From the NCBI GenBank assembly GCA_009844085.1, contig VYCF01000021.1, positions 124,001-188,000 of the forward strand: DNA of 64,000 bases. The letters run 5' to 3'. The stretch is from Gammaproteobacteria bacterium (GTDB lineage: Bacteria > Pseudomonadota > Gammaproteobacteria > Pseudomonadales > Pseudohongiellaceae). Both the position numbers and the translations under genes were made by a program. Position 1 is the stretch's first letter; every line of letters begins with the position of its first letter. Shown here piece by piece: positions 7,731 through 24,643 of the stretch. Under the pieces are notes generated by a model. That model had not been told where the DNA came from and searched no databases. It saw only the letters and a list, made by a program, of their open reading frames with translations.

Positions 7731-7872
7731 GCCTGCACAGCGTGAGTCGTCGGCGGGCGGAATGGGGTACAGCGGGCGTCCCCGACATGGATGTCGGGGC
7801 CGAAGCCTACAGGGAAGTATTTACGGCGTCCGCTGTACCCCATTCCGCCCGCCGGCGACGGTTCGAAGCCAC
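7731..7872 (+). repeat. Large palindromic intergenic repeat, copy 1
   Basis: First of three related elements in this window. The arms 7751-7775 and 7830-7854 are a perfect 25-base inverted repeat, extended outward to 7746/7859 with one G-T pair and inward by a few wobble pairs. Inside are a second perfect hairpin (about 7780-7799, arms CCCCGACA/TGTCGGGG) and an invariant core (7800-7830) containing CGAAGCCTACAGGGA and GTATTTACGGCGTCC. The unit ends GGTTCGAAGCCAC. It fills the gap between the divergent nitroreductase and radical SAM genes and touches the latter's promoter. It is probably non-coding; the family name is unknown to me. Confidence 0.85.
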
Positions 7873-7886
7873 AATTACGGCTTTAA

Positions 7887-7895
7887 TGCTATAAT
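7887..7895 (+). promoter_or_regulatory. Extended -10 promoter of the radical SAM gene
   Basis: TGCTATAAT, a perfect extended -10 element (TG at 7887-7888, TATAAT at 7890-7895). No convincing -35 lies 17 bases upstream, where repeat copy 1 ends. Transcription would start near 7902 and give a leader of about 32 bases before the ATG at 7934. Confidence 0.55.
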
Positions 7896-7933
7896 TCGCG
7901 CCATCTTGCGATTGGGCGCGATTGGGACAGAAC

Positions 7934-9532
7934 ATGAATTCCCAGGCACAAATGATCGCCGTCAGTAGTGGCGAGTCGATCTATCGCGAGGAAAAATCCC
8001 GTTATTTCGGCACGGTCACACGCAAGAAACTGCGGCTGGCCTTCTCTTTCTATTCCCCGGACGGCAACGAGATCGCCATGCCCATCGCGAGCATGTCGGC
8101 CTATCTCAAGCGCGAATTCCCCGATGTCGAAGTCCTGCTCGAACCGATCCTGATCCTGCGCGACGCCGAACGCTATTCGCCGGCGAGTTACGCCCGCATG
8201 ATCGAGTCGCTCGATGCCGATCTGATCGCATTCTCCGTCATGAGCCCGCACTGGTATCCGATGGAGCCTTACTTCGCGGAACTCAAGCGCCTGATGCCTT
8301 CGCTGCCGATCCTGATCGGCGGCTACCAGGCCATGCTGTCCCAGGAAGAGACCATCGCCAATCCGAACATCGATTACATCTGTGTCGGCGATGGCGAATA
8401 CGCCATCGGCAACATGGTGCGGCATCTGCGCGGAGAACTCGGCCCCGCCGACGGCATGTGGGAAAAACTGATCGACGGCGAGATTTTCCGCACCGAACCG
8501 CACCAGAACGGCGATCTTGCCGCGCTGCCTTTCCCGGATTACGAAATCTTCTCTCGCGACGGCAGCTTCGAAGGCGTAAATTCCTCGATTTTCGGACCGA
8601 AAGGCAAGCTCGTGCTGCCGGTCATGACCGGCCGCGGCTGTCCGTATCGTTGCACCTATTGCTGCAATACGCCGCTCCTCGAAAGCTGGAAGAGCAAGAA
8701 GACCTTTCTGCGCAAGTACGAGCCCGAGGCCATGGTGGCCGAACTCGAACGCCTGCGCGATACGTACAACGTCGGCTATTTCGAATTCTGGGACGAGTTG
8801 TTCCTGTCCAATCTGAAATTCGTGCGCGCCTTCTTCGAGATCTACAAGGAGCGCATACGCCTGCCGTTCTCGATCAATTCGCGAGTCGAAGTGATGAACG
8901 AGGATTTCTGCCGCACGGCGGCGGAAGCGGGTTGCCACACGATCTGGTTCGGCATCGAAAGCGGAGACGAGGAGTTTCGCTCGCGCATGCTCGGCCGCAA
9001 GATGGCCAATCAGCAGGTCATTGACGCCGCCGACAATTGCAGGAAGGCGGGAATCTTCCGCCTAACCTTCAACATCGTCGGCGCTCCGCTCGAGACCGCC
9101 GATGGCATGCGCAAGACGCTCGAACTCAACAAGCGCATCGCGCCGGAATTCTTCTTTTTCTTCCCCTACATCCCGCTGCGCGGAACGCCGCTATACAAGA
9201 TCGCCGAACAGGAAGGCCTGCTGATCAAGCACAAGAAGAACCTGCACTACCTGTCGGCGGTAAACGACCGCAAGTTCACCCTGAACATGAAGGAGCGCCC
9301 GGAACTGCTCACGCAGGACGAGTACAACGAGATCTGCACGGAAATGCTCGCCTTCCAGGAAGCCAACAATCGCCTGAGTTATACCGAAGGCAACGCCATG
9401 GAAGAGCCGGCCGAGGTGCAGGACAAGAGCTTCCAGCTCGTGGAAGACGCGCCGCCCCCCGTGGAGCCAACGCCCGAGGCCGAACAAAAGAAATCGCTTT
9501 TCTCCGAAGTCCGCGGCTTCTTCAGCCGCTAG
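7934..9532 (+). CDS. B12-binding-domain radical SAM protein, unknown substrate
   Basis: 532 residues with the layout of cobalamin-dependent radical SAM enzymes. An N-terminal Rossmann-like B12-binding domain spans about 33-170 (LRLAFSFYSPDGNE, then SLDADLIAFSVMSPHWYPM and PILIGGYQAML). A radical SAM barrel follows, with the cluster motif CPYRCTYC (Cys 236, 240, 243). The last 60 residues are acidic and proline-rich, ending in KKSLFSEVRGFFSR. The DxHxxG base-off cobalamin motif is not evident, so cofactor use is uncertain. The start is the ATG at 7934 after GGGACAG; a TTG four codons earlier is less likely. No cluster partner identifies the reaction. Its TAG stop overlaps the convergent MATE gene's stop. 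Confidence 0.88.
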   Translation: MNSQAQMIAVSSGESIYREEKSRYFGTVTRKKLRLAFSFYSPDGNEIAMPIASMSAYLKREFPDVEVLLEPILILRDAERYSPASYARMIESLDADLIAFSVMSPHWYPMEPYFAELKRLMPSLPILIGGYQAMLSQEETIANPNIDYICVGDGEYAIGNMVRHLRGELGPADGMWEKLIDGEIFRTEPHQNGDLAALPFPDYEIFSRDGSFEGVNSSIFGPKGKLVLPVMTGRGCPYRCTYCCNTPLLESWKSKKTFLRKYEPEAMVAELERLRDTYNVGYFEFWDELFLSNLKFVRAFFEIYKERIRLPFSINSRVEVMNEDFCRTAAEAGCHTIWFGIESGDEEFRSRMLGRKMANQQVIDAADNCRKAGIFRLTFNIVGAPLETADGMRKTLELNKRIAPEFFFFFPYIPLRGTPLYKIAEQEGLLIKHKKNLHYLSAVNDRKFTLNMKERPELLTQDEYNEICTEMLAFQEANNRLSYTEGNAMEEPAEVQDKSFQLVEDAPPPVEPTPEAEQKKSLFSEVRGFFSR

Positions 9533-10893
9533 GCCGCCTTTTCCTGCAGGCGCAATTCCGCGTTGACCGCGCGGTTAAAAGCTGCCAGCGAGATCAGTCC
9601 CATCAGCAGATTGCCGGCAACCGCCCCGCCGAAAAATCCCCATAGCCCGAAATATACGCTGCCGAGCCAGGCCAGCGGCACATAGAACACGAAGAAACGG
9701 GCGATGCTCAGCCACAGCGCGCTCATGGGCTGGTGCAAGGCGTTAAGCGAGGAGTTGGTCAGGATGATGACGCCTTGCATGCCATAGCCCAGTGGCAGAA
9801 TCCACAGAAACAGCCTGATCGTCGAAATGACTTCCGGATCGTCGGAGAAGACCTCGGCGATGACCGGGGCCAGCAGCGCCAATACGCCATAGATCAGCAA
9901 TTGCCAGACGAGTACGAAGCGGATCGCGATCCGGTAAGCTTCGGCGACCCGGCTGACGTGCCCGGCGCCGTAATTCTGGCTGATCAGCGGCGGCAGCGAA
10001 GTGGATATGGCGAGTACGAGCAGGGTGGCGATGGGTTCGATGCGCCCCCCGACGCCAAACGCCGCCACAGCGCTGTTGCCGAAACCGGCCGCGATGGCGG
10101 TCATGACGCCTGCCGCGATCGGGGTCATCATGTTCGCCCCCGCCGCCGGAATGCCGATGCGTAACATTTCCCGGCCCGAAGTCGCCATGACTTCGGGCGA
10201 TGGAAACTTTCTGCTTATCATTTCCTGTTTGAAAATCAGCAGGCGGTACAGATAGGCGAAGGCCATCGCCCAGGAGATCACCGTGGCCCAGGCCGCGCCC
10301 TGGATGCCGAGGGCGGGAAAAGGACCGAGGCCGAATATCAGCAGTGGGTCCAGCACAGCATTGGAAAAGCCCGCGAAGGCCATCAACATGCTTGGCGTCT
10401 TCGTGTTGCCGCCCGCGCGCAGGATGGCGTTGCCGGTCATCATGCATACGATCAGCAGGCTGCCCGGCAGCCAGACCACCATGAATTCGCGTATCAGCAC
10501 GAGCATGTCGTCGCCCGCTCCGAGCAGGCGGAAAATCTCGTCCAGGAATATCCAGCACAGGACGATCATCAGGCTCGCCATGGTCGCCGAAATGTAATTG
10601 ATCACCGTCGCCGCTTCCTTGGCGCGCTCGATTTCGCCGCGGCCCAGGTATTTCGCCACTACGGCGGAAGCGCCGATACCGAGGCCGATGGCCAGGCTCA
10701 AGATGGTGAAACCGACGGGAAAGGTGAAACTGATGGCGGTCAGCGGATCGGTGCCGAGGAAACTGATGAACAGCGTGTCCACTATGTTGAAGGTGAACAT
10801 CATCAGCATGCCGATGATCATCGGCGTGGTCATGCGGATGAGAGATTCTCGGACTGAACCTTCCGCCAGCTTGTGGTGGTTGCTTTGGGCCAC
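9529..10893 (-). CDS. MATE family efflux transporter
   Basis: 454-residue inner-membrane cation antiporter of the multidrug and toxin extrusion family, expected to have twelve helices. The N-terminus RESLIRMTTPMIIGMLMMF and the repeated small-residue helices in two homologous halves (first near LFISFLGTDPLTAISFTFPV, second near GNSAVAAFGVGGRIEPIATL) are typical of DinF/NorM-type proteins. The substrate cannot be predicted. The stop codon lies within a CTAG shared with the convergent radical SAM gene. Confidence 0.92.
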   Translation of the reverse strand: MAQSNHHKLAEGSVRESLIRMTTPMIIGMLMMFTFNIVDTLFISFLGTDPLTAISFTFPVGFTILSLAIGLGIGASAVVAKYLGRGEIERAKEAATVINYISATMASLMIVLCWIFLDEIFRLLGAGDDMLVLIREFMVVWLPGSLLIVCMMTGNAILRAGGNTKTPSMLMAFAGFSNAVLDPLLIFGLGPFPALGIQGAAWATVISWAMAFAYLYRLLIFKQEMISRKFPSPEVMATSGREMLRIGIPAAGANMMTPIAAGVMTAIAAGFGNSAVAAFGVGGRIEPIATLLVLAISTSLPPLISQNYGAGHVSRVAEAYRIAIRFVLVWQLLIYGVLALLAPVIAEVFSDDPEVISTIRLFLWILPLGYGMQGVIILTNSSLNALHQPMSALWLSIARFFVFYVPLAWLGSVYFGLWGFFGGAVAGNLLMGLISLAAFNRAVNAELRLQEKAA

Positions 10894-10927
10894 GTGATCC
10901 TCCTGGAAAGCCGCCCGGAAATATATC

Positions 10928-11701
10928 CTAGATTCCGCCGCGTAATTGCAACAGTTTGCGCACCATGCGCGGATTGCCGAACAGGATTTCGCCTGCGGCG
11001 GCGATATCGGGGTGGCCCGACTCGCCGACGAGCAGGCCGCCGGCTTCCGTAAGCACGAGTCCTGCTGCGAGTTGGCCGAAGCCGGTGCTTTCGCCGGACC
11101 AGCCCCCTTGCAAGCGGTTCGCGGCCGTCTGCACGATATCGAATACGGCGCAGCCGCTTTGCCGGATCAGCGCGTTTTCCGCGTGCAGCCGCTGTTGCAG
11201 TCGATGCAGCAACTGCCGTTTGCTCGAGGCCGTGTGCAGGCTCAACAGCGTGCCGTCCGGGCGTGTTTCACCGCCCACGCGGATACGGCGGCCATTCAAT
11301 TGCGCGCCCTGGCCGCGGCTGGCGCTGAATTCCTCGTTGGTCTGCGGCAGAACAACGGCGGCATGGCTCAATATGCCTTTTACGCGGCAGCCGACGGCAA
11401 CTCCGAAAGAGGGCAGGCCGGAAAAGAAATTGCGGCTGCCCGCCAGCGGCTCAAGCAGCCAGACGACGCTCTCGTCCGTACCTCCACAGACTCCCGAGAG
11501 GCGCGATTCGATTCGATGCTCGGGATAGAGTTTCCCGATCTGGTATGTCAGCGTGCGTTCCGAATCCCGATCCATGCTGGTGCTGAAACCGTCCTCGGAA
11601 TCGTCGAGCAGCTTCACCCGGTCGAGCCGGTCTACGCCATGAGCGAGATTGCGCGCGGCGGCGCGGGCCGCGATGAGTGCCACGTTGAGCAGGGATTCCA
11701 T
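10928..11701 (-). CDS. suhB: SuhB homologue (inositol monophosphatase family) lacking catalytic metal ligands
   Basis: 257 residues with the inositol monophosphatase fold and SuhB landmarks (MESLLNVALIAARAAARNLA, GQGAQLNGRRIR, ILFGNPRMVRKLL). Its position, divergent from trmJ, is the conserved suhB locus. By eye alignment with E. coli SuhB the active site is degraded. The metal-site glutamate of TEESG is replaced (RLSG, residues 67-70). The DPLDGT motif reads EPLAGS (84-89), losing both aspartates. The WDFAAG aspartate is Gln 210. A phosphatase role is therefore unlikely. A structural role, such as SuhB's part in the NusA/NusG rRNA antitermination complex, would not need these residues. The functional inference is mine. 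Confidence 0.85.
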   Translation of the reverse strand: MESLLNVALIAARAAARNLAHGVDRLDRVKLLDDSEDGFSTSMDRDSERTLTYQIGKLYPEHRIESRLSGVCGGTDESVVWLLEPLAGSRNFFSGLPSFGVAVGCRVKGILSHAAVVLPQTNEEFSASRGQGAQLNGRRIRVGGETRPDGTLLSLHTASSKRQLLHRLQQRLHAENALIRQSGCAVFDIVQTAANRLQGGWSGESTGFGQLAAGLVLTEAGGLLVGESGHPDIAAAGEILFGNPRMVRKLLQLRGGI

Positions 11702-11817
11702 GATTTGCGGAAAATCGGACGGGCGCTGACGCCGGGGTGCGGATGATAGCAGAACCGCAGCCCCGGCCCGCCGATTGGTGAGATAATGCCGCGCCAGGAC
11801 AAAAGCGATTCCCGAAC

Positions 11818-12573
11818 ATGACAGACCTCGATTTCGGCAACATATCCGTCGTGCTGGTCAACACTTCCCATCCCGGCAATATCGGCGCCAGCGCCAGGGC
11901 GATGAAGAACATGGGCCTGTCGAAGCTCGTGCTGGTGCGGCCGAAGGAGTTTCCGAGCGGTGTCGCCACGGGCCGGGCCGCGTCGGCGGTGGATCTGCTG
12001 GAACAGGCGCGGGTCGTAGACTCGCTCGACGAAGCCATCGCCGACTGCGGTCTGGTCATCGGCGCCAGCGCCCGTTCCCGCCGCATTCCCTGGCCATTGC
12101 TGACCCCCGAGCAGTGCGCGCGGCAGGCGCTGGCCGAGGTCGCCGGAAACCGGGTCGCGCTGGTATTCGGCCGAGAGGATACCGGGCTCAGCAACGAGGA
12201 ATTGCAGTTATGCCACTATCACGTGCGCATTCCCGCCAATCCCGGCTACAGTTCGCTGAATCTGGCCGCGGCGGTGCTGGTGGTCTGTTACGAACTGCAC
12301 AAGGCCGCATTGACCGAAGAAGGTGACGAAGCCGCAGCCCTCGAGCGTGAATGGGATCAGGAAATGGCCACCGGCGAAGACGTCGAGAGATTCTACGAAC
12401 ACCTGGAGCGAGTGCTGGTCGCGGTCGATTTCCACGACCCGAAAAATCCGCGCCACCTCATGCATCGCATCCGGCGCCTGTTCGGCCGCATCCGTATCGA
12501 CGTCATGGAAATGAACATCCTGCGCGGGATGCTCACGCATATCGAAAAAAATCTGAAGGGTCGCGACCGCTAG
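11818..12573 (+). CDS. trmJ: tRNA (cytidine/uridine-2'-O-)-methyltransferase TrmJ
   Basis: SPOUT-class enzyme methylating the 2'-OH of nucleotide 32 in several tRNAs. It has 251 residues, the normal length. The N-terminal motif VVLVNTSHPGNIGASARAMK, the knot motifs ALVFGREDTGLSNEEL and IPANPGYSSLNLAAAVLVV, and a C-terminal helical extension (from about residue 165) are characteristic. Divergent suhB upstream matches the E. coli arrangement. The gene that follows trmJ in E. coli, iscR, is absent and a SufR-like regulator converges on it instead. Confidence 0.96.
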   Translation: MTDLDFGNISVVLVNTSHPGNIGASARAMKNMGLSKLVLVRPKEFPSGVATGRAASAVDLLEQARVVDSLDEAIADCGLVIGASARSRRIPWPLLTPEQCARQALAEVAGNRVALVFGREDTGLSNEELQLCHYHVRIPANPGYSSLNLAAAVLVVCYELHKAALTEEGDEAAALEREWDQEMATGEDVERFYEHLERVLVAVDFHDPKNPRHLMHRIRRLFGRIRIDVMEMNILRGMLTHIEKNLKGRDR

Positions 12574-12579
12574 GTCTAC

Positions 12580-13236
12580 TCAGGCAGCCTTTTCCACTTC
12601 TGCGCTGACGCGTCTGATTCTCCAGGCGCAGCGGCGGTCGCCGGCGAGCAGGTGATCGGTCTGTTCCACCATCGCCCCGGCGCCAAGCAGATCCTGGAAC
12701 ATGCGCTGTTCGGACTTGCAGAAATGCGGGCAGTTCTCTGCGCAGGCCTGTATCGGGCAATGGTTCTGCACCAGCAGCCAGCCGTCGGGCAACAGTCGCA
12801 CTTCAGCCATGTAGCCGTCGGCGCTGCGCAGATTGACCAGATGTTCGACCTTTTGTTGCAGGTCGTCGTCCGGCCCGCGCATCGCCGCCCGGTAACGCTG
12901 TTCCACCCGGCCGGTGCGCTCCTCGACCATGCGCTCGACGCCGTCGCCGCCCCAGCAAAGATCGGCGACCTGAATCAATTCCCGCGCCAGATCCGCGCCG
13001 GAGTTCGGGAACCAGGCATGGCCTTTTTCGGTCAGTTTCCAGAGCGAAACGGGCCGGCCGCGATGTTGCCTCTCGGCAGGCAACTGTTGCACGAATCCGA
13101 TCTCGTTCAGATCGGCCAGGTGATGACGCACGCCCATGGTCGTCATTTCCAGTTGCCGCGATAGAATGCGCACCGACTGGGGGCCGCGGGTTTTCAGGCT
13201 GTGTAGAATATGCCCCTGGCTGCGCGGGAGTTGCAT
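12580..13236 (-). CDS. SufR-like winged-helix regulator with C-terminal cysteine cluster
   Basis: 218 residues from the ATG at 13236, which has an excellent Shine-Dalgarno (AGGAAGGAG). The open frame upstream of it is ignored. Residues about 5-75 form an ArsR/DeoR-like winged helix (SVRILSRQLEMTTMGVRHHL, HRGRPVSLWKLTEKG). The C-terminal half carries Cys 160, 165, 169, 173 and 203 in CPIQACAENCPHFC and RRCAWRI, the pattern of SufR-type iron-sulfur-sensing repressors. It would therefore sense Fe-S status and control Fe-S assembly or nearby genes. No suf or isc gene is in the window. It converges on trmJ and is divergent from putP, whose promoter region it could bind. Confidence 0.72.
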   Translation of the reverse strand: MQLPRSQGHILHSLKTRGPQSVRILSRQLEMTTMGVRHHLADLNEIGFVQQLPAERQHRGRPVSLWKLTEKGHAWFPNSGADLARELIQVADLCWGGDGVERMVEERTGRVEQRYRAAMRGPDDDLQQKVEHLVNLRSADGYMAEVRLLPDGWLLVQNHCPIQACAENCPHFCKSEQRMFQDLLGAGAMVEQTDHLLAGDRRCAWRIRRVSAEVEKAA

Positions 13237-13369
13237 GGCTTGCTCCTTCCTGCATTTACCCGGTATATCGGTATCAAAGGCAAAAGGTTTACTTGCGCGG
13301 CGGCATGCGGGGGGAGTCGATGACAAAAACAAGCTGGAACTTTGTTAATCGCGCGGGGGCGCCGGGATC

Positions 13370-14851
13370 ATGACGATCAACTGGCCGTTGATGACGGTTT
13401 TCATCGCCTATCTGCTGCTGATTTTCGTGCTGGGTTTCATCGCGTACCGCCGCACGCACAATCTCGGCGACTACATCCTGGGCGGGCGCAGCCTGGGAAC
13501 GTTGGTAACAGCGCTCAGCGTCGGCGCCTCGGACATGAGCGGCTGGCTGCTGCTGGGCTTGCCCGGAGCGATCTATCTGTCCGGCATCCGTGAAGTCTGG
13601 ATCGGAGTCGGGCTGGTCATCGGCGCCTGGCTCAACTGGCTGTTCGTGGCGCGCCCGCTGCGGGTCTACAGCCACCAGGCGAACAATTCGCTGACCTTGC
13701 CGGACTTCTTCGCCAACCGCTTCCGCGATCACGGCAATCTGCTGCGAGTCACTTCGGCGCTGGTGATTCTGCTGTTTTTCACTTTCTATGTCGCCGCCGG
13801 GCTCGTAGGCGGCGCCATCCTCTTCGAAAGCAGTTTCGGCCTCGATTATTACGTGGCGCTGATCGTCGGCGGCTGTATCATCGTCGCGTATACCCTGGCC
13901 GGCGGCTTTCTCGCCGTCGCCTGGACCGACGCCATCCAGGCCTTGTTGATGCTGGCGGCGCTCTTGCTTGCGCCGTTGATGGTGATCAATGCCATGGGTG
14001 GCGTCGGCGAGGTAGCCGACCGGATGCTGGCCGTAAACCCGCAAAGCACCAGCCTTTTCGGCGGCCTCGGCGCATTGGGACTGATTTCCCTGCTGGCCTG
14101 GGGGTTCGGTTACGTAGGGCAGCCGCATATTCTGGCGCGATTCATGGCGGCGAAAGACCCGGAGCGCCTGTTCGCGGCGCGCCGCACGGCGATGAGCTGG
14201 ATGATCGTCGTCCTGGTCGGCTCGGTATCGACCGGGCTGGCGGGCATCGCCTGGTTCGCGGACAGTCCGCTGGAAAATCCCGAAACCGTCTTCATCGCGC
14301 TCAGCCAGGCCCTGTTCAATCCCTGGCTGGCCGGCGTCATTACCGCCGCGATCCTGTCGGCGATCATGTCGACGATCGATTCGCAATTGCTCGTGTCCTC
14401 GAGCGTGGTCAGCAAGGATCTGTATCGCACCTTCTATCGCCGCGACGCGCAAGACCGCGAACTGGTGCTGGTCAGCCGCCTGGCGGTGGTGGCGATCGCG
14501 CTGGCCGCCATGGCCATCGCTTCCGACCGCAACAGCCTTGTGCTGGAGCTGGTCAGTTATGCCTGGGCCGGGTTCGGCGCGGCTTTCGGGCCGGTCATAT
14601 TGTTCTCTCTGTTCTGGCGCAAGACCACGGCCCCGGCTGCACTGGCGGGCATGGTGACCGGTGCGGCAACGGTAGTGGTCTGGTCCAATCTGAGTGGGGG
14701 AATTTTCGATCTGTATGAAATTCTGCCGGGATTCGTCTTCGGTTCGCTGGCGATTCTGGCGATCGGAGCATGGCAGCCCGAACGGGAAGTCTTCGTGCTC
14801 GACGGATTCGACCGGGCCTGGCGCAGTCTCGGGGGTCCCGAACCCGCCTAG
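13370..14851 (+). CDS. putP: Sodium/proline symporter PutP
   Basis: 493-residue sodium:solute symporter importing proline, expected to have 13 membrane helices. The family signature around the sodium site is present: SVGASDMSGWLLLGLPGAIY, then WNWLFVARPLR-like text (here LNWLFVARPLRVYS), and AILSAIMSTIDSQLLVSSS near residues 320-345. The length equals PutP (about 500). The start is the ATG at 13370. Its 3' end overlaps the convergent elaA-like gene by four bases (shared CTAG). The SufR-like regulator is divergent. Confidence 0.93.
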   Translation: MTINWPLMTVFIAYLLLIFVLGFIAYRRTHNLGDYILGGRSLGTLVTALSVGASDMSGWLLLGLPGAIYLSGIREVWIGVGLVIGAWLNWLFVARPLRVYSHQANNSLTLPDFFANRFRDHGNLLRVTSALVILLFFTFYVAAGLVGGAILFESSFGLDYYVALIVGGCIIVAYTLAGGFLAVAWTDAIQALLMLAALLLAPLMVINAMGGVGEVADRMLAVNPQSTSLFGGLGALGLISLLAWGFGYVGQPHILARFMAAKDPERLFAARRTAMSWMIVVLVGSVSTGLAGIAWFADSPLENPETVFIALSQALFNPWLAGVITAAILSAIMSTIDSQLLVSSSVVSKDLYRTFYRRDAQDRELVLVSRLAVVAIALAAMAIASDRNSLVLELVSYAWAGFGAAFGPVILFSLFWRKTTAPAALAGMVTGAATVVVWSNLSGGIFDLYEILPGFVFGSLAILAIGAWQPEREVFVLDGFDRAWRSLGGPEPA

Positions 14852-15357
14852 CGCAACATGTCAACATGGGGAATGCCTTCTTCGTCGTAAGGATTCGAAA
14901 CGGCGCGAAAGCCGAGAGAGGCATAAAACTCGACCAGGTACTGTTGTGCGGACAGGCCAGTCGTCGCACCGGGCCAGAGTCGTTCGCAACGCGCGAGGGT
15001 CTCACGCATGAGCAGGCGGCCCAGACCTTCGCCGCGGTATTCTTTTCTCACGAGCACGCGGCTGATCGCCGTGTAAGGCGTTTTCGTGCCAGGCGCGTTG
15101 ATGCGGGCGTAACAGGCCAGTTCGCCGTCGTACAGCCCGCAGAGATGCAAGGCGTCCTGGTCGTGGCCGTCGAGGTCCTGGTAGGCGCATTCCTGTTCGA
15201 CGACGAAGACCTCGGCGCGCAAACCGAGCATCGCGTAAAGCAGTTTGCTGTCGAGTTCCTCGAAAGAGGAGAAAATCCAGTCAGGCGCCGGCAAGCCGAA
15301 ATCTCCGGGTCTCGGGTATGCAGGCGAATGATATGGCCCGCGGCCCGCGTTTCCCAA
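14848..15357 (-). CDS. elaA: GNAT acetyltransferase, ElaA type
   Basis: Predicted acetyl-CoA-dependent N-acetyltransferase. The ElaA signature LYAMLGLRAEVFVVEQECAY lies at about 40-60, followed by YQDLDGHDQDALH. The acetyl-CoA loop VRKEYRGEGLGRLLMRE lies near 103-119. The C-terminal NPYDEEGIPHVDMLR matches the ElaA ending. The 169-residue length assumes the TTG at 15357. ElaA is normally about 150 residues, so the first 15-20 residues may not be translated; no nearby ATG offers an alternative. The substrate is not known. Confidence 0.85.
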   Translation of the reverse strand: MGNAGRGPYHSPAYPRPGDFGLPAPDWIFSSFEELDSKLLYAMLGLRAEVFVVEQECAYQDLDGHDQDALHLCGLYDGELACYARINAPGTKTPYTAISRVLVRKEYRGEGLGRLLMRETLARCERLWPGATTGLSAQQYLVEFYASLGFRAVSNPYDEEGIPHVDMLR

Positions 15358-15378
15358 TCGGCCGCCTTGGCTTATACT
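15350..15378 (+). promoter_or_regulatory. Candidate promoter of tRNA-Arg
   Basis: -10 TATACT (15373-15378), with TTTCCC (15350-15355) 17 bases upstream as a weak -35, and a GC-rich discriminator (TTGCGCC) as in stringently controlled stable-RNA promoters. Predicted start is about 7 bases before the mature tRNA. Confidence 0.45.
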
Positions 15379-15391
15379 CTTGCGCCTGCCC

Positions 15392-15468
15392 GTCCCCGTG
15401 GCACAACTGGATAGCGCGACGCCCTCCTAAGGCGTAGGTTGCAGGTTCGACCCCTGCCGGGGACACCA
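15392..15468 (+). tRNA. tRNA-Arg, anticodon CCT
   Basis: 77-base cloverleaf. The acceptor arms are GTCCCCG (15392-15398) and CGGGGAC (15458-15464), followed by A and an encoded CCA (15466-15468). The anticodon stem is ACGCC/GGCGT around the loop CTCCTAA, giving anticodon CCT, which reads AGG codons. The T arm is GCAGG TTCGACC CCTGC. All standard elements are intact. Confidence 0.96.
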
Positions 15469-15503
15469 GTTCCGGCGCAGCATGCCGCCTGAAGCTTTCC
15501 AGC

Positions 15504-17603: not shown

Positions 17604-17631
17604 GTTGGATACTCCCGGATAGTTAATCAGT

Positions 17632-17970
17632 TCACCTGAACCTGACCGCGGTGCCGTAGCCGGCGAGGATGATCATGCCGCCCTTGTTGCCGCTGAACTC
17701 GCTATAGTCGAACTCGACCGAGACCACCGCGTCGGCGCCCGCTTCGGCGGCTTCCGCGGCAAGCTCGGCAAGGCAGGTTTCACGAGCCTTGCGCAAGGCT
17801 TCCTGGTGCGTGCCGCTGCGGCCGCCGACGATGTCGCGGATGCCGCCCATGATGTCTTTGAAAATATTGATCCCGAGCACGCATTCCGCACCGACGATGC
17901 CAAGCGACTCGCCGATTTCGCGTCCGGGAAAATACGCGGTGGTTACAATTCTGTTGATCGGAATCGCCAT
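17632..17970 (-). CDS. YbjQ (DUF74) family protein
   Basis: 112 residues. The family pattern is clear: TTAYFPGREIGESLGIVGAE near the N-terminus, then the loop DIMGGIRDIVGGRSGTHQEA and the motif EAGADAVVSVEFDYSEF. Members form pentameric beta-rich rings. The Pfam name mentions heavy-metal binding but no activity is established to my knowledge. The ATG at 17970 is chosen because AGGAGG lies 10 bases before it; the GTG three codons upstream would overlap the ribosome site. Confidence 0.88.
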   Translation of the reverse strand: MAIPINRIVTTAYFPGREIGESLGIVGAECVLGINIFKDIMGGIRDIVGGRSGTHQEALRKARETCLAELAAEAAEAGADAVVSVEFDYSEFSGNKGGMIILAGYGTAVRFR

Positions 17971-18040
17971 GGTTTCCACTCCTCCTTGACTATGTGCGAA
18001 TCAAGCCTACCGCTTGCGGCGCGGAGTTTCCACACCCCGG

Positions 18041-18970
18041 TCATGTGGGATCGGCAATGCATTCGTAGGCGAGCGGCGCCGCCTGCAAGAGCGCTTCCGC
18101 GCGGCCGTCCAGATACCATGGGCGTCCTTCGGCGACCGCCTCGATATTGGCCACGGCCAGGGCCAGATTACCGCCCCGGCTTCGGTTTACATGGGCGAGC
18201 ACCGGCTCTCCCTTTTCCGGACTGACTCCCGATCGGGCGCATACGCGGCTGTCCGCGGTGAACTCCGCCTCGCCGCTGAGCAGAAACAGGCGTTTTTTCG
18301 GCTTGCCCCGGAAATGCATGCGGGCGACGACTTCCTGGCCGGTGTAACAGCCCTTGCTGAAATTGATCACGCCGGAAATATCGTAGTTGAGCAATTGCGG
18401 CGTAAATTGCTCGCTGCTGGCCGGGCCGACGTGAGCCGTTCCGGACTTGATTTCCGCGGCCAACCAGTCACGGCCGGGATTTGACTGCCATTCACCGAAC
18501 AATTCACGCAAGGGTGGAATCACGGCCTCGTCGAGGCACCACAATTCCTGCCTCCCGCCCGGCAGCCGCAACAGGCACATCTGGGCCGAGACCGTGCTTT
18601 CGTTGACCGCGCCCGGCGGCGTGGGAAAGAGTCTGGTCAACGCGGCCTCGAAATCATCGCCCAGGATGCCGAGGACCAGCGGTGGCTCGACGCGGCGCAA
18701 TTCGACCCTGGAAAAGACCGCGTAGCGCGACAAGGTGTCGATGATTTTCCCGGCCATGCCGCCCGCTGTCTGCAGCAGGCAGGAGTCACCGGTTTGCGCC
18801 AGCCGGAAATCGGCAACGACGCGGCCTTTCAGGTTGCAGATGGCGCCCGGCAGGGAACGGGTTTCCGACAGCAGATCGACATTGCAACTCACCTGGCCTT
18901 GCAGGAACTTGCGCGCATCCGGGCCTTCGACCTGGACGAATTCGTGTTCCGGCAATGCGTAAACTGGCAT
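18041..18970 (-). CDS. ygfZ: Folate-binding tRNA-modifying protein YgfZ
   Basis: GcvT-like tetrahydrofolate-binding protein that supports assembly or repair of certain Fe-S enzymes, including MiaB. It has 309 residues from the ATG at 18970. The open frame extends upstream but that part is unlike the family. The YgfZ signature KGCYTGQE is at 206-213 with the essential cysteine at 208. The N-terminal FVQVEGPDARKFLQGQVSCN is typical. It is divergent from sdhE, a common arrangement in gammaproteobacteria. Confidence 0.95.
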   Translation of the reverse strand: MPVYALPEHEFVQVEGPDARKFLQGQVSCNVDLLSETRSLPGAICNLKGRVVADFRLAQTGDSCLLQTAGGMAGKIIDTLSRYAVFSRVELRRVEPPLVLGILGDDFEAALTRLFPTPPGAVNESTVSAQMCLLRLPGGRQELWCLDEAVIPPLRELFGEWQSNPGRDWLAAEIKSGTAHVGPASSEQFTPQLLNYDISGVINFSKGCYTGQEVVARMHFRGKPKKRLFLLSGEAEFTADSRVCARSGVSPEKGEPVLAHVNRSRGGNLALAVANIEAVAEGRPWYLDGRAEALLQAAPLAYECIADPT

Positions 18971-19101
18971 GAAGGGTACTCGCGGCTGATCGAAAAGGCG
19001 CAGTTTAGCAGCACTTGATTCATGCCGTCTTTTTCCCGGGATATCGAAAAGGTTTCGGCAAAATGCTAGCTTGCGCACACCGGTCCAGGAGACCTTCGGG
19101 C

Positions 19102-19377
19102 ATGGCGCAAGACAGCCGGATTCCCGGTGATTTACAGAAAATCTATTGGCGCAGCCGCCGGGGCATGCTCGAACTCGACTTGCTGCTCGTGCCGTTCACT
19201 CTCGAAGCCTATGCCGGCCTGTCGCCCGCGGATCAACTCCGGTACCGTCAATTGCTGGAATGCGAAGACCAGGACCTGTTTGCCTGGCTGATGCGGCGCG
19301 AAGCGGCAGCGGACCGGCAACCGCTCATCGATCGCATCCTGGCGCACAATTCGGCGCGTTCGGAGAAAGCGGACTAA
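19102..19377 (+). CDS. sdhE: FAD assembly factor SdhE
   Basis: Small helical protein promoting covalent attachment of FAD to succinate dehydrogenase and fumarate reductase (also called CptB or YgfY). It has 91 residues from the ATG at 19102, with AGGAG upstream. The flavinylation motif RGMLELD at about 20-26 is intact, and CEDQDLFAWLMRRE is the usual second half. ygfX follows 9 bases later in the same direction, as in E. coli, and ygfZ is divergent. Confidence 0.95.
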   Translation: MAQDSRIPGDLQKIYWRSRRGMLELDLLLVPFTLEAYAGLSPADQLRYRQLLECEDQDLFAWLMRREAAADRQPLIDRILAHNSARSEKAD

Positions 19378-19386
19378 GCTTTTTGC

Positions 19387-19803
19387 GTGCTTCGAATCCA
19401 TCCCGCCCCTTCCCGGCTTCGCTTCCTGCTGGCGCTGTTCCTGCACGGACTGGCGCTGACGGCGCTGTTTCATTCCGGCGCGCCATTCTGGCTCAAGTCG
19501 GCACTGGCGCCCCTGGTGTTCTGCGGGCTATGGCTTGAAGCGCAAATCGCCCTCGGCCGCAGGCAAGTCGTGGCAATGCAGATAGGCGCGCGGTCCGTGA
19601 AACTGCGGATCGACGGAGAAAGCATGGAAACCGGACCGCCACAGGTGCGCCATTGCTCGGAATGGCTGGTTATCGTCGAATTTCCGGTGCGAGGCGCCGA
19701 ATCCGGACACCGAAGATTTCATCTCGTACTGTTTCCGGATTCACTACTCACAGACGAACGGCGCAGATTGCGCCGCTGGATATACTTTTACCTTGGGAGA
19801 TAA
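19387..19803 (+). CDS. ygfX: YgfX (CptA) family membrane protein
   Basis: 138-residue inner-membrane protein starting with GTG at 19387. Two hydrophobic helices lie near the N-terminus (about 12-28 and 33-50), followed by a short soluble region with WLVIVEFPV and a basic DERRRLRRWIYFYL ending. Length, topology and position directly after sdhE match E. coli YgfX, which was described as a toxin acting on FtsZ and MreB and as SdhE's operon partner. Identification rests largely on context, because YgfX proteins diverge strongly. Confidence 0.8.
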   Translation: MLRIHPAPSRLRFLLALFLHGLALTALFHSGAPFWLKSALAPLVFCGLWLEAQIALGRRQVVAMQIGARSVKLRIDGESMETGPPQVRHCSEWLVIVEFPVRGAESGHRRFHLVLFPDSLLTDERRRLRRWIYFYLGR

Positions 19804-19813
19804 GAAGCCCGAG

Positions 19814-19851
19814 GAGATTCTGCAACTCCGCTTCGCTACGCGCAGAATGAC
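19814..19851 (+). repeat. Small hairpin repeat, copy A
   Basis: Arms ATTCTGC (19817-19823) and GCAGAAT (19842-19848) around a loop rich in CGCT/AGCG steps, flanked by GAG and GAC. A second copy in reverse orientation is at 24655-24692. Both precede a large palindromic repeat by a similar distance in the same relative orientation. Confidence 0.75.
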
Positions 19852-19860
19852 GGGCTGGCG

Positions 19861-20003
19861 AACCAGCACTGCCTGAGTCGCTGGCGGGTGGCGCGGGGTT
19901 TAGCGGGCGTCCCCGACATGGATGTCGGGGCCGAAGCGTACAGGGACGTATTCACAGCGTCCGCTAAACCCCGCGCCACCCGGCGGCGACGGATCGAAGC
20001 CAC
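19861..20003 (+). repeat. Large palindromic intergenic repeat, copy 2
   Basis: Same element as copy 1. The main arms 19885-19906 and 19961-19982 are perfectly complementary over 22 bases, extended to about 30 pairs with one G-G mismatch. The arm sequence (CGGGTGGCGCGGGGTTTAGC) differs from copy 1 (GGCGGAATGGGGTACAGC), yet pairing is kept. The inner hairpin (CCCCGACA/TGTCGGGG) and the core CAGGGAcGTATTcACaGCGTCC are nearly identical. The flanks AACCAGCACT and GGATCGAAGCCAC mark the ends. It lies between ygfX and nadB, at the 3' ends of both. Confidence 0.85.
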
Positions 20004-20009
20004 TTTCCC

Positions 20010-21698
20010 TCAAAATTCCAGCAGATCCGCATGTTCGGGCGGCGCGAGCACGGTATCCGCAGCCTCCGGCAACAGGTTCGGGTGATCCAGATTGAAATGC
20101 AGCCCGCGGCTTTCCTTGCGCAGGCCGGCGCTGCGCACGATCAGGCCCGCTACCAGCGCCAGGTTGCGCAATTCCAGCATGTCGCGGCTGATGCGATAGC
20201 TTTGGAAATGTTCATGAATTTCCTCGCGCAGCATTTCCAGGCGCCGTTCGGCCCGCCGCAGACGGCCGTCGCTGCGCACGATTCCGACGTAGTCCCACAT
20301 GCAGCGGCGCAATTCGTCCCAGTTGTGCGAAATCAGGATGTCGTCGCCCGATTCGGCGCGGCTGTCGGGCCAGCCCGGGGCGGGGCCCGCGAAATCCGTG
20401 TCGCCGATCTTGCGGCCGATCGAATCGGCCGCGCTGAAGGCGATGACGAAACATTCCGACAGCGAGTTGCTGGCGATACGGTTGGCGCCATGCAGGCCGG
20501 AGAAGGTTGTTTCGCCCACCGCGTATAGATTCTCGATGTCGGTTTCCCCGTCGCGATTGACCATCACGCCGCCGCAGGTGTAATGCGCCGCCGGAACGAC
20601 CGGAATCCGCTCGCGGGTGATGTCGATGCCGAGTTCCAGGCAGCGCCGATGGATATTCGGAAAACGTTCGCGCACCAGTTCCGCGGGCCGATGAGCGATG
20701 TTCAGATACACGCAGTCCTCGCCGAGCCGCTTGGTTTCGTGATCGATCGCCCGGGCGACGACGTCGCGCGAGGCCAGTTCGCCGCGGCTGTCGAACTGTT
20801 CCATGAATCGGGCGCCGTCGGGCAATTCGAGCCTCGCGCCTTCGCCGCGCATGGCCTCGGTGATCAGGAAACTGCGGGCATGGGGGTGGAACAGGCAGGT
20901 CGGATGGAACTGGTTGAACTCCATGTTGGCGACCCGGCAGCCGGCGCGCCAGGCCATGGCGATGCCGTCGCCGCTGGCGCTGTCGGGATTCGTCGTATAC
21001 AGATAAGCCTTGCTCGCGCCACCGGTGGCAAGCACCACGAACCTGGCCTCGATCGCCGAAACCCGGCGCGTGGCGTCGTCGAGCACGTATACTCCGCTGC
21101 AACGGCGCGAAGCGCCGCCGCCGGGCTCATGCACGACGAGATCGAGCGCGGTGCAGCCTTCCATGAAATGGATGGTCGGATTTTCGTTCGCGCGCCGGTG
21201 CAAGGTCTGAAACACCGCCTTGCCCGTGGCGTCGGTGGCATGAATGATGCGCCGGTGGCTGTGAGCGCCTTCCTGGGCAAGATGCAGGGAGCTGAGATCG
21301 ATATCGGCGTCATTGCTGCCGCCCCGCCGGACGGTCGCGCCGGGGAGGGTGCTGAAAGGAACGCCTTGTTCCACCAGCCATCTGACCGCGGCCGCGCTGT
21401 TGCCAACCACATGTTCGACCATTTCCCGATGGCAAAGCCCGCCGCCGACCGTAATCGTATCCTCGACATGCGATTCGAGACTGTCGCTGTCGTCGAGCAC
21501 CGCCGCAATGCCGCCCTGGGCGTAGAACGTCGCACCCTGTTCCAGGCTCGACTTGCTGAGCAGGCCCACGCTGGCGAACGGGGCGGCGCGCAACGCCAGC
21601 GTCAACCCGGCTGCGCCGCTGCCGATGACGAGGATGTCGAATTTGCGTGTCGAACCAGGGATCATGCGGCGGGGCGCAAGGTTGGTGCGCGGAGACAT
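20010..21698 (-). CDS. nadB: L-aspartate oxidase NadB
   Basis: FAD enzyme oxidising aspartate to iminoaspartate, the first step of de novo NAD synthesis. It has 562 residues. The dinucleotide-binding motif ILVIGSGAAGLTLAL lies near 22-36, the active-site region HTFYA-like text appears here as GATFYAQGGIAAVL, and the succinate-dehydrogenase-family motifs MEFNQFHPTCLF and HYTCGGVMVN are followed by LYAVGETTFSGLHGANRIAS. The C-terminal helical domain is present. It is divergent from rpoE, the arrangement seen in E. coli and Pseudomonas. Confidence 0.96.
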   Translation of the reverse strand: MSPRTNLAPRRMIPGSTRKFDILVIGSGAAGLTLALRAAPFASVGLLSKSSLEQGATFYAQGGIAAVLDDSDSLESHVEDTITVGGGLCHREMVEHVVGNSAAAVRWLVEQGVPFSTLPGATVRRGGSNDADIDLSSLHLAQEGAHSHRRIIHATDATGKAVFQTLHRRANENPTIHFMEGCTALDLVVHEPGGGASRRCSGVYVLDDATRRVSAIEARFVVLATGGASKAYLYTTNPDSASGDGIAMAWRAGCRVANMEFNQFHPTCLFHPHARSFLITEAMRGEGARLELPDGARFMEQFDSRGELASRDVVARAIDHETKRLGEDCVYLNIAHRPAELVRERFPNIHRRCLELGIDITRERIPVVPAAHYTCGGVMVNRDGETDIENLYAVGETTFSGLHGANRIASNSLSECFVIAFSAADSIGRKIGDTDFAGPAPGWPDSRAESGDDILISHNWDELRRCMWDYVGIVRSDGRLRRAERRLEMLREEIHEHFQSYRISRDMLELRNLALVAGLIVRSAGLRKESRGLHFNLDHPNLLPEAADTVLAPPEHADLLEF

Positions 21699-21780
21699 GG
21701 ACGGAATACAATGCGGGCGTACATTACCACACGTGCAAACCGATTGGGTCGTTTCCCGCGGGTCAACCTCATGTCCATGC

Positions 21781-21807
21781 GAACTTTTTTCCGGCTTCGC
21801 TGTCTCA
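21781..21807 (+). promoter_or_regulatory. Candidate sigma-E promoter upstream of rpoE
   Basis: GAACTT (21781-21786), a 16-base spacer, then TCTCA (21803-21807), close to the sigma-E consensus GAACTT-N16-TCTGA. The predicted start is about 60 bases before the rpoE ATG, in the divergent gap with nadB. This suggests the usual autoregulation of rpoE. Confidence 0.6.
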
Positions 21808-21870
21808 GAAACAGGGCGTCAGTGCCGCGGGCAACAATCGAAGGCCTCCGGGAAAGACTGAGAGGTACGA

Positions 21871-22440
21871 ATGTCCCGGGATACTGACCGGCAACTCGTG
21901 GAGAGGGTACTGGCCGGCGAGACGAATGCGTTCAACTTTCTGGTGTTGCGATATCAGCATCGGGTTGCGGGTTTGATCAGCCGGTTCGTGCAGAGCCCAC
22001 AGGAAATAGAGGACATCAGCCAGGAGGCGTTCGTAAAGGCTTACCGCGCCCTGTCGTTATTCAGGGGTGACAGTTCGTTCTATACGTGGCTCTACCAGAT
22101 CGCGGTGAACACCGCCAAGAACTATCTGGTATCGCGGAATCGGCGGCTGATGGCGGGAAGTCTCGACATCGAAGAGGCGGAACATGGCGAACTCGCACCG
22201 GCGCTGCGGGACATAGCCGACCCGGAAAGCGAGTTGGAGATGGAGCATCTGAAGGCGGTGATTGATGCCGCCATCGAGGAACTGCCCGAAGAATTGCGTA
22301 CGGCCTTCACCTTGCGCGAATTTTCCGGCATGAGTTACGAACAGATCACCGAGGTTATGGATTGTCCGGTGGGTACGGTAAGATCGAGGATATTCCGCGC
22401 CAGGGAGGCGATAGACAGGAAGATCCGCGAGATATTGTGA
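21871..22440 (+). CDS. rpoE: RNA polymerase sigma-E factor (RpoE/AlgU)
   Basis: Group 4 (extracytoplasmic function) sigma factor directing the envelope-stress response. It has 189 residues, the same scale as E. coli RpoE (191). Region 2 is YQHRVAGLISRFVQ to AFVKAYRALSLFRGDSSFYT, with the DISQEAF motif. Region 4 is the helix-turn-helix LREFSGMSYEQITEVMDCPV followed by GTVRSRIFRARE. GAGG precedes the ATG at 21871. rseA follows 39 bases later. A sigma-E-like promoter is upstream. Confidence 0.97.
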   Translation: MSRDTDRQLVERVLAGETNAFNFLVLRYQHRVAGLISRFVQSPQEIEDISQEAFVKAYRALSLFRGDSSFYTWLYQIAVNTAKNYLVSRNRRLMAGSLDIEEAEHGELAPALRDIADPESELEMEHLKAVIDAAIEELPEELRTAFTLREFSGMSYEQITEVMDCPVGTVRSRIFRAREAIDRKIREIL

Positions 22441-22479
22441 CACAGCAAAGCTAATTTGGATTTGGGCAAGAGGCGGAGC

Positions 22480-23043
22480 ATGAGTGAAACACGGCGGGAA
22501 ACGCTTTCCGCGATGCTCGACAACGAAACCGACGAACTTGAGTTGCGGAGGCTGCTCAAGACCGCCGACGACGATGCGGAACTCAAGCGCGTCTGGGAGC
22601 GCTACAGTCTGGCGCAGTCCCTGCTGCACGAATCCCGCGTCGGCCGATTGAGCGACGATTTTCATCTGGAAGTCGCCCGCCGCCTGCAAGCGGAACCCGC
22701 GCCGAAACGCGGCTCCGGCGTATCGGCGACGGGCCGGCAATTCGCGGGCAGGTTCGCGATCGCGGCAACAGTCGCGCTTGCCGTTTTCGTGGCATTGCAA
22801 GCCGGTCTCGACAACGAACCGGCGGCGCCGCAAATCGCGAACGAAGCGTCGGCCCCCGCGACCGCGCCGGCGGCGCAGATTGTCGAAGTCGACAACGCTC
22901 CTGTCGTTCCCGTGGACCCGGAAGCGCGGCAGCGGCTGCTCGAATATATCGAGAGCATGCGTTTCGACCCGGAAGAACCGCCACGGATGGAACACATCCA
23001 GGATTCCCCCCTCTTTCACCTGGTCAACGACCTGCAGGACTAG
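22480..23043 (+). CDS. rseA: Anti-sigma-E factor RseA/MucA
   Basis: Single-pass inner-membrane protein that holds RpoE inactive until cleaved by site-1 and site-2 proteases. It has 187 residues from the ATG at 22480 (GAGGCGGAGC upstream). The N-terminal sigma-binding domain (about 1-70) starts MSETRRETLSAMLDNETDEL. One transmembrane helix lies at about 91-109, followed by an Ala/Pro-rich periplasmic part that ends with YIESMRFDPEEPPRM. No rseB follows, and mucD comes next. The site-2 protease gene rseP is in this window at 52.6 kb. Confidence 0.92.
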   Translation: MSETRRETLSAMLDNETDELELRRLLKTADDDAELKRVWERYSLAQSLLHESRVGRLSDDFHLEVARRLQAEPAPKRGSGVSATGRQFAGRFAIAATVALAVFVALQAGLDNEPAAPQIANEASAPATAPAAQIVEVDNAPVVPVDPEARQRLLEYIESMRFDPEEPPRMEHIQDSPLFHLVNDLQD

Positions 23044-23126
23044 CCCGCCGGGGTTCATTCAACTATTTCGGCGCGTTGCGCTATGGTACATTTGACTGTT
23101 ACGTGTTCGGTCAAAGGTAAAGCCGC

Positions 23127-24503
23127 GTGCACAAGTCCTTCCGTACCGCAATGGCGTTTACGCTCGCAGTCGCCTGGTTTATTCCGGCGGCAGCGGCGGA
23201 ATTGCCGAACTTCGCCGACCTGGTGGAGCGCAGCGCGCCCGCCATCGTGGAAATTTCTACCAGCCGCGCCAACCAGCAGGGGAATCTGTTCGACGAATTC
23301 GACGACCTGTTCCGCCGGCAAATTCCGGACGGGCGGCAACCCGAGGAACCGTTCCAGCCGCGCACCGTCGGCTCCGGATTCATCGTTTCCGATGACGGCT
23401 ATGTAATCACGAATAACCATGTCGTCTACGGCGCCGACGAAATCCGCGTACATCTGAACGACCGCCGCGTATTGGTGGCGGATGTCGTCGGCCTGGACGA
23501 ACCTTCCGATCTGGCGCTGCTCAAGCTCGAGGCCGCTGACTTGCCCTTCGTCGGATTCGGCGATTCCGACGCCTTGCGGATCGGTGACTGGGTGCTCGCG
23601 ATCGGCTCGCCTTTCGGTCTTGAATTCTCGGCCTCGGCCGGCATCGTCAGCGCGAAAGGCCGCACGGTACCGCGCCGCTCGTCATATAACTACATGGCTT
23701 TCCTGCAGACCGACGTGGCGATCAACCAGGGCAATTCCGGCGGCCCGCTCTTCAACCTCGAAGGCGAGGTGGTAGGCATCAATTCGCGGATTCTGAGCAG
23801 CACCGGCGGCTCCAACGGCGTGTCCTTTGCCATTCCGAGCAATGTCGCGGTAAACGTGCTCGACCAGTTGCGGGAAACCGGAGCAGTGCAGCGCGGCCTG
23901 CTTGGCGTGCAGATGGGCGAAGTCGACTATGAAATGGCCCGTAACGTCGGTTTGCCGCGCCCGCTCGGCGCATACGTCGATCGCGTGCAACCCGCAAGTC
24001 CGGCGGAACGCGCCGGCCTGCGCGACGGCGACATCATCACCGGCTTCAACGGGCACGAAATCGGGTTCTTCACCGAATTGCCGTATTTCGTCGGACAATA
24101 CCATCCCGGCACACGCGCCGAAGTCGTCGTGCGCAGGGAAGGCGAGGAATACAGTTTCGAAGTGACTCTCGGCAGTTCGCCGACCAATGCCGCCATCGCC
24201 GCGGCCGAGCCGGCCCCGCGGCCGCGACCGGAAAATCCGCTCGGATTCCGCGTTGCCGACCTGAGCGGCGAAACCCGCCAGGTCGCCGGCATCAGCGGTG
24301 TGCGCGTCGCACAAATGGCGCCGGGCCCGGGCAGCGATTCGGGCCTGCAATTGAACGACGTAATCACCGCTCTCAACGGCGAGCCGGTCGAGTCGGCGGG
24401 AGATTTCGCGCGTATCGCCGAAGCCTTGCCCGAATCGGGCTCGATTCCGCTGGAAATCCTGCGCCAAGGCGAAAGCCGCAGCCTGTCATTGGAGTTGCCC
24501 TGA
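23127..24503 (+). CDS. mucD: Periplasmic serine protease/chaperone of the Do (DegP/MucD) family
   Basis: 458 residues from GTG 23127 (AAGGTAAAG upstream). The signal peptide is about 1-24 (AFTLAVAWFIPAAAAE). The trypsin-like protease has triad motifs with His in ITNNHVV, Asp in EPSDLALLKLE and Ser in GNSGGPLF. Two PDZ domains follow (from about residue 255 and residue 370). Position after rpoE-rseA corresponds to Pseudomonas mucD. It degrades or refolds misfolded periplasmic proteins. Large repeat copy 3 begins immediately after its TGA stop. Confidence 0.93.
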   Translation: MHKSFRTAMAFTLAVAWFIPAAAAELPNFADLVERSAPAIVEISTSRANQQGNLFDEFDDLFRRQIPDGRQPEEPFQPRTVGSGFIVSDDGYVITNNHVVYGADEIRVHLNDRRVLVADVVGLDEPSDLALLKLEAADLPFVGFGDSDALRIGDWVLAIGSPFGLEFSASAGIVSAKGRTVPRRSSYNYMAFLQTDVAINQGNSGGPLFNLEGEVVGINSRILSSTGGSNGVSFAIPSNVAVNVLDQLRETGAVQRGLLGVQMGEVDYEMARNVGLPRPLGAYVDRVQPASPAERAGLRDGDIITGFNGHEIGFFTELPYFVGQYHPGTRAEVVVRREGEEYSFEVTLGSSPTNAAIAAAEPAPRPRPENPLGFRVADLSGETRQVAGISGVRVAQMAPGPGSDSGLQLNDVITALNGEPVESAGDFARIAEALPESGSIPLEILRQGESRSLSLELP

Positions 24504-24643
24504 GTGGCTTCGATCCGTCGCTATCTGGTGAGCAGGGTTTAGCGGACGCCGTAAATACATCCCTGTAGGCTTCGGGCTCGGCGTCCTGCCTCGCACGCCC
24601 GCTAAACCCTGCTCACCAGACGGCGACTCACATAGTGCTGGTT
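24504..24643 (-). repeat. Large palindromic intergenic repeat, copy 3
   Basis: Same element on the minus strand, starting at the base after the mucD stop. The arms 24524-24545 and 24599-24620 are a perfect 22-base inverted repeat with yet another arm sequence (TCTGGTGAGCAGGG). The inner hairpin also differs from copies 1 and 2 but is again GC-rich and self-complementary in part. The core CGAAGCCTACAGGGAtGTAT and TTACGGCGTCCGCTAAACC is conserved, as are the ends (GTGAGTCGCCG and GGATCGAAGCCAC, read on the minus strand). Confidence 0.85.

Follow-up and report, generated by a model that had tools for sequence, protein, structure and literature searches.

Why do dispersed palindromes keep covarying stems? 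This question is raised by three palindromes in the 64-kb stretch of DNA analysed here (the window, taken as a whole), all of them present where a preliminary description had placed them. With ends set by the common 5' GCAC..GTGAGTCG and 3' GGATCGAAGCCAC, element 1 (7735..7872, plus strand; alignment A3) and element 2 (19866..20003, plus strand) are 138 nt long, and element 3 (24504..24638, minus strand) is 135 nt long. Each copy of the element forms a three-way junction, consisting, on the strand with the GGA loops, of a long stem of variable sequence, P1 (about 30 bp), a hairpin, P2 (often 7 bp), and a bulged hairpin, P3. In element 1, pair counting places the P1 arms at 7746..7777 and 7828..7859; P2 occupies 7780..7799, with the loop ATGGAT at 7787-7792, and P3 occupies 7805..7827, with the loop AGGGAA at 7811-7816, both loops being closed by a C-G pair. 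The corresponding hairpins of element 2 are P2 at 19911..19930 (loop ATGGAT) and P3 at 19936..19958 (loop AGGGAC), and the P2 loop of element 3 is the pentaloop AGGAC. P3 typically has the form GCC-TAC-loop-GTA-TTYAC-GGC with a bulge of five bases, and reads CTACAGGGATGT or GTACAGGGATGT in many copies; the conserved GCGTCC is the inner 3' strand of P1.

A genome search finds far more than the original three copies, in keeping with the large family that had been predicted from them. BLAST with element 1 gave 42 matches at E ≤ 0.001 in its own genome, corresponding to about 40 copies, since one match is the palindrome finding itself on the other strand and one copy is split in two. A covariance model (R1) made from 36 copies, all from other genomes, gave 54 matches at E ≤ 0.01. 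Where both ends were found, 36 of 38 own-genome copies measure 135-138 nt. The copies are intergenic: by the calls of a home-made gene caller, 32 of 41 overlap no gene and eight overlap weak calls only, while in one case, L028, the overlap is with the beginning of a strong call. The element is also spread widely in the Gammaproteobacteria. It occurs in 52 of 274 genomes of a class sample at E ≤ 0.001 (five of these carriers rest solely on matches of E 3.9e-4 to 9.6e-4), in 17 of 41 genomes of a genus sample, with 0 to 78 copies per genome, and in 26 of 398 genomes of a phylum sample at E ≤ 1e-7. All 26 belong to the class or order from which the window comes, the sample's share of other classes not being given. 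The own genome, G294, G295 and G310 have 45-78 copies each, and G298 has 60. Carriers among the matches listed include Methylocucumis, Methylotuvimicrobium (including Methylotuvimicrobium buryatense 5G), Ectothiorhodospira, Stenotrophomonas, Thioalkalivibrio and Sedimenticola; that scan yielded at least 112 stretches with the P3 loop fixed beforehand as AGGGAY, so that only P2 loops can be judged there. Five copies stand head-to-tail at L198:872-2110 (G298:C1:5442371-5443609), repeating about every 287 bp, with some non-element DNA in each repeat unit, and pairs of copies in opposite orientation lie within about 350 bp of each other at G298:C1:363407-363645, G601:C6:77487-77826 and G396:C108:45281-45621. 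Judged by eye among the matches listed, with the origin assumed at coordinate 1, the copies lean to opposite replichores in G298 and G249, and thus no replichore inference is drawn.

Do the arms of these further copies still pair? The preliminary description had noted that the arms differ between the three copies and yet remain complementary, and the larger set behaves in the same way. In alignment A3, comprising the 24 copies of 138 nt among the 38 own-genome copies with both ends, 96.8% of cells are paired, against 85.8% after shuffling, and moving one arm 1-3 bases out of register lowers the figure to 35-51%. Pairing thus greatly exceeds what chance would give. Changes on both sides are seen in 22 of 45 pairs (P1 19/32, P2 3/7, P3 0/6); P3 does not covary in this set, its third pair being non-standard in 10 of 24 copies, and P2 contains two G-A pairs in 9 of 24. 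The 36 copies of R1 are 96.2% paired, with two-sided changes in 22 of 30 pairs (P1 15/17, P2 5/7, P3 2/6). These copies were picked from 61 sequences by three criteria (P2 stem of 7 bp, loop with GGA, a single P1 register), which biases the P2 pairing in this alignment, whereas P1 pairing was not selected on. In an alignment across 29 genomes (A5), 96.3% of cells are paired and 23 of 28 pairs are changed on both sides (P1 15/15, P2 5/7, P3 3/6), the rows being partly dependent since six of the genomes belong to the window's genus. A5 takes one copy per genome, at or near the best hit; of the 31 loci tried it contains 29, no core having been found within the set limit in L176 and L178. Here P3 does covary, from TAC/GTA to CCC/GGG, TCC/GGA, GAC/GTC or CAC/GTG. 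The bulge and GCGTCC are nearly invariant, and the loop letters are among the most conserved parts, staying fixed while the stems change. In the 211-nt copies L040 and L041, an insert opens P3; a similar long P3 insert, with differing P1 arms, is seen in L040:3005-3215, L041:3000-3210 and L194 (two genomes). In the G295 orthologue of L010 (L186, L197) the loop is enlarged and carries an outer inverted repeat, GGTCCGCCCCGC; both contigs stop within this copy.

A palindrome folds on either strand, and mismatches in P1 indicate which of the two is selected. Counted as distinct contexts on the GGA strand, isolated G-T mismatches outnumber A-C mismatches in the own genome (18:2), in relatives (11:3) and in the other loci (57:20), giving 86:25 overall (p=5e-9, the contexts of related copies not being fully independent); other kinds of mismatch account for 58 distinct contexts. 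If one arm merely corrected the other, or if both strands counted equally, G-T should equal A-C. We conclude from the excess that selection acts on the folded GGA strand, whether in the form of RNA or of single-stranded DNA, which bears out the earlier suggestion that a folded strand is selected. This comparison separates folded-strand selection from mere arm correction and is usable on other palindromic repeats.

What would such a strand present? Both the P2 and the P3 loop fit C-ANGGAN-G, the CsrA/RsmE consensus. The P2 count was made by folding the P2 region of copies with a P1 stem, GGA not being demanded. The form C-A(N)GGA(X)-G was found in all 40 own-genome copies that were scored (30 hexaloops and 10 pentaloops). 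It was also found in 105 of 121 other loci, most of them from other genera and a few from the genus of the window, and in 14 of 21 copies from close relatives. Excluded from scoring in the three sets were, respectively, one of 41 (for its length), three of 124 and three of 24. Among the first hairpins of shuffled P2 regions, 18 of 3,637 fit, even with the closing C-G not required. Fourteen of the 23 misses (16 in other loci, seven in relatives) have GGA in a differently formed loop, and nine have none. Since the own-genome copies were retrieved by similarity to element 1 and have a common ancestry, they do not amount to 40 independent observations, and the other loci provide the stronger test. 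In P2, the A, the GGA and the closing C-G are constant, the variable positions being N and X, and loops shorter by one base occur; in PMC4005645, RsmE is described as binding a stem-borne hexaloop, ANGGAX, from which N or X can be omitted at a certain cost. Passages of PMC7652899 give the CsrA SELEX consensus as RUACARGGAUGU and describe a CsrA dimer that bridges sites 10-63 nt apart, best above 18 nt. The GGAs of P2 and P3 are 19-22 nt apart in all 175 copies scored, of 189, taking the GGA nearest the middle of the P2 region. Some longer copies have extra C-ANGGAN-G hairpins (L200 and, in Pantoea, L224 and L231, where modules of 78 and 76 nt with such a hairpin lie inside P2).

The own genome has a CsrA gene. 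Across the class sample, however, CsrA presence tracks the element only weakly: a match is found in 48 of the 52 carriers and in 186 of the 222 genomes without the element (p=0.08) and, among good genomes, in 41 of 42 carriers against 170 of 194 others (p=0.04), both uncorrected for kinship. One carrier, G196 (98% complete, 10 element matches), has no CsrA match above the cut-off, and three less complete carriers are likewise without one. Judging from loop sequence and predicted fold, CsrA probably binds the element. The bulge and GCGTCC are not explained by CsrA, and perhaps a mobilising enzyme is the alternative.

The repeat has a known counterpart in YPAL/RU-2, the Yersinia palindromic sequence. 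When the published RU-2/YPAL sequence (PMC2759123, Table 1b) was aligned and folded, its core and fold proved to be shared with the window elements. (The alignment, A4, in which rows L134, L212 and L216 are badly cut, served only to place RU-2.) As here, P1 surrounds a P2 with the loop AAGGAT and a P3 that reads CTACATGGATGTATTTACGGC; the GGA loops of RU-2/YPAL are AAGGAT and ATGGAT. On the other hand, the P1 arms and the ends are unlike, YPAL is longer, at 167-168 bp, and the present element is also found outside Enterobacterales. Both are intergenic and multi-copy, and the present element has empty and filled sites in relatives; according to passages of PMC2229807, YPAL is intergenic and mobile, with duplications of 3-26 bp at or adjoining dyads, and part of PMC2847712 gives it 37-144 copies in 10 of 11 Yersinia species. 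The palindromes almost certainly belong to the YPAL superfamily.

Mobility, also proposed in the preliminary description, is seen in filled and empty sites. Element 1 is absent from the relative G295, while in G294 it is found at the same site with other arms and an expanded P3 (relatives being about 89-94% identical), and two sites that are filled in G295 are empty in the own genome. Carriage by phages or plasmids was considered and rejected for the window's element: element 1 had no match in the phage, plasmid or E. coli collections, and the exact core was absent from viral contigs. The Yersinia-type core matched 13 Pantoea plasmids, no phage and no E. coli record, unlike a table in the available part of PMC2847712, which gives three YPAL matches for E. 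coli. A 1.5-kb Pantoea query matched 53 plasmid records; among the 40 matches listed, ten align over 99-100% of the query and another 25 over 87%, as would be expected if the site is occupied in some plasmids and vacant in others. Nine Pantoea sites were read, of which six are filled and three empty. The empty site has one terminator-like hairpin, and at filled sites the insert is flanked on each side by an exact 28-bp copy of it (L218, L220, L221), by copies that differ by one or two bases (L217, L224) or by the right-hand copy only (L219). A second Pantoea site does not have clean ends. The duplication thus spans 28 bp across a terminator-like hairpin, compared to the 3-26 bp of YPAL. In the own genome, unlike YPAL, no target duplication is detectable: a shared word of at least 8 was found in 1 of 38 copies, which is near chance. 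A REP-like hairpin does lie 5' of 12 of the 38 own-genome copies, at exactly 14 nt in seven (it is on the 3' side in two), and looks like a preferred insertion neighbour. In the window, such hairpins are found at 19816..19851 (plus strand), ending exactly 14 nt ahead of element 2, and at 24655..24690 (minus strand), ending 16 nt ahead of element 3. With the form GATTCTGC...CGCAGAATGAC, this hairpin is a second dispersed repeat in its own right, at a near-constant spacing from the 12 elements beside which it lies.

How does the element compare with known RNAs? The sponge RNAs CsrB/CsrC and RsmX/Y/Z are single genes with many sites. Their GGA hairpins follow the same consensus, whereas the present element is scattered through the genome as a repeat, each standard copy having two sites. 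TwoAYGGAY (RF01731, Clostridia), proposed as a CsrA-binding RNA in PMC4333381, resembles the element in layout, being described there with a poorly conserved external stem, two GGA-loop hairpins and tandem G-A pairs, the last of which are also seen in the P2 subtype of 9 of 24 A3 copies; the passages on it do not mention mobility, and the TwoAYGGAY covariance model had no match at E ≤ 5 in four loci or at E ≤ 1 in twelve. The opposite strand of the element is matched by Ysr224 (Rfam RF02770, Yersinia sRNA 224), with 35 matches in the own genome at E ≤ 1, the best of which, at 34.1 bits, falls short of the 70-bit gathering score. At this E-value the control genomes match as well in five of 14 cases, and only 5 of 274 class genomes match at E ≤ 1e-6. 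Rfam lists Ysr224 as an sRNA and places it on the C-rich strand, whereas the element here is a mobile repeat whose selected strand is the GGA strand; the strand of that annotation counts against the CsrA reading. The match suggests that one strand of a mobile repeat has been catalogued as an sRNA family, with consequences for a list in PMC9029176 that includes Ysr224 among the 20 most prevalent bacterial sRNAs. No text linking YPAL or Ysr224 to CsrA was found in the open literature searched: the words CsrA and RsmA are absent from PMC2759123, PMC2267715 and PMC5193452, CsrA is absent from PMC2229807, and none of the CsrA passages in the available part of PMC9029176 is about Ysr224. Relative to these texts, the connection between the loops and CsrA appears to be new, although this is not certain.

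The explanation we favor, with moderate confidence, is that the palindromes are non-autonomous mobile elements of the YPAL/RU-2 type whose GGA strand folds to present CsrA-type loops. Insertion would take place at DNA dyads (terminator-like or REP-like hairpins, for example), either beside them or inside them, by means of an enzyme that is probably supplied in trans. Copies would then be co-transcribed from neighboring genes, and a transcript of the GGA strand would form the three-way junction, kept closed by P1, with P2 and P3 each displaying a C-ANGGAN-G loop. At about 20 nt apart, both loops could be spanned by one CsrA/RsmA dimer. The outcome might be an effect on the host, through titration of CsrA or control of host transcripts, or an effect on the element's own movement. 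More tentatively, and with somewhat less than an even chance in our estimation, the family would scatter CsrA-binding modules through genomes across much of the Gammaproteobacteria, up to 78 copies per genome searched, such that transposition rewires or buffers Csr/Rsm. On this reading movement may even pass through the folded RNA, since RNA-primed insertion would suit an element with a structured core, one selected strand and a target duplication of such length. If CsrA does bind, a repeat printed mainly from Yersinia would be a mobile layer of the Csr/Rsm network across a class, target maps that discard repeats could miss it, and the reason why such palindromes retain covarying stems would become testable.

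The strongest competitor places the function at the level of DNA: the top strand would fold as single-stranded DNA, with loops, bulge and core read by an unknown transposase or nuclease, and the likeness to CsrA sites would be coincidental. Insertion polymorphism and a duplicated dyad are in agreement with this, as are copy numbers that range so widely within one genus sample and a bulge and GCGTCC that are conserved besides the loops. The strand asymmetry also fits a strand-specific DNA enzyme, and the elements have no preferred sense relative to genes, the GGA strand running with the upstream gene in 17 of 41 copies and against it in 23 (one had none), which weighs against the CsrA reading too. 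However, the combination of fixed and free loop positions with tolerated pentaloops is the Csr/Rsm pattern, and the Y1 HUH transposase family (E ≤ 1e-5) is unmatched in 9 of 17 genus carriers, though matched in eight, including G298. A purely DNA-level element is unlikely, while retaining an appreciable chance.

It is considerably less probable that the element works mainly through its long hairpin in RNA, by determining the stability of mRNAs or by serving as a ribonuclease cleavage site in the way reported for Neisseria and Yersinia palindromic repeats, with the loops as passengers. The predicted fold of the window copy is indeed very stable (-94.8 kcal/mol), and for many copies a predicted stop codon is at most 20 nt away. 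Repeats are mentioned as mRNA stability determinants in PMC2267715, and PMC2229807 suggests that YPAL influences upstream transcripts. Passenger loops, however, should not be among the most conserved letters of the element, fixed while the stems around them change. Could the compensation in the arms be purely mutational, by template switching between them, with the fold unselected? The orthologues L039 and L200 differ by five P1 pairs changed on both sides and by no single P1 change, in flanks that are about 89% identical (the linker, loop position X and the bulge have one single change each), and at some shared sites the arms are entirely different but still complementary, just as template switching would have it. 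Acting alone it would make G-T and A-C mismatches equal, contrary to the 86:25 observed, and it leaves the fixed loops unexplained, making it very improbable. Finally, although the neighbouring REP-like hairpins recall REP/BIME elements moved by a RAYT transposase, this has next to no likelihood, since the Y1 family is unmatched in 9 of 17 genus carriers, including the own genome.

The preferred reading, a mobile repeat with CsrA-type loops, thus retains the genomic family, covariation, folded single strand and mobility of the preliminary description and drops its RAYT branch. The RAYT/Y1 mover was rejected because the own genome, G294, G295 and G310 (assemblies 92-97% complete) have no Y1 match despite the many copies that each of them carries. 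Elsewhere in the window, 46151-46261 matches the Rfam t44 RNA (RF00127) at 59.7 bits.
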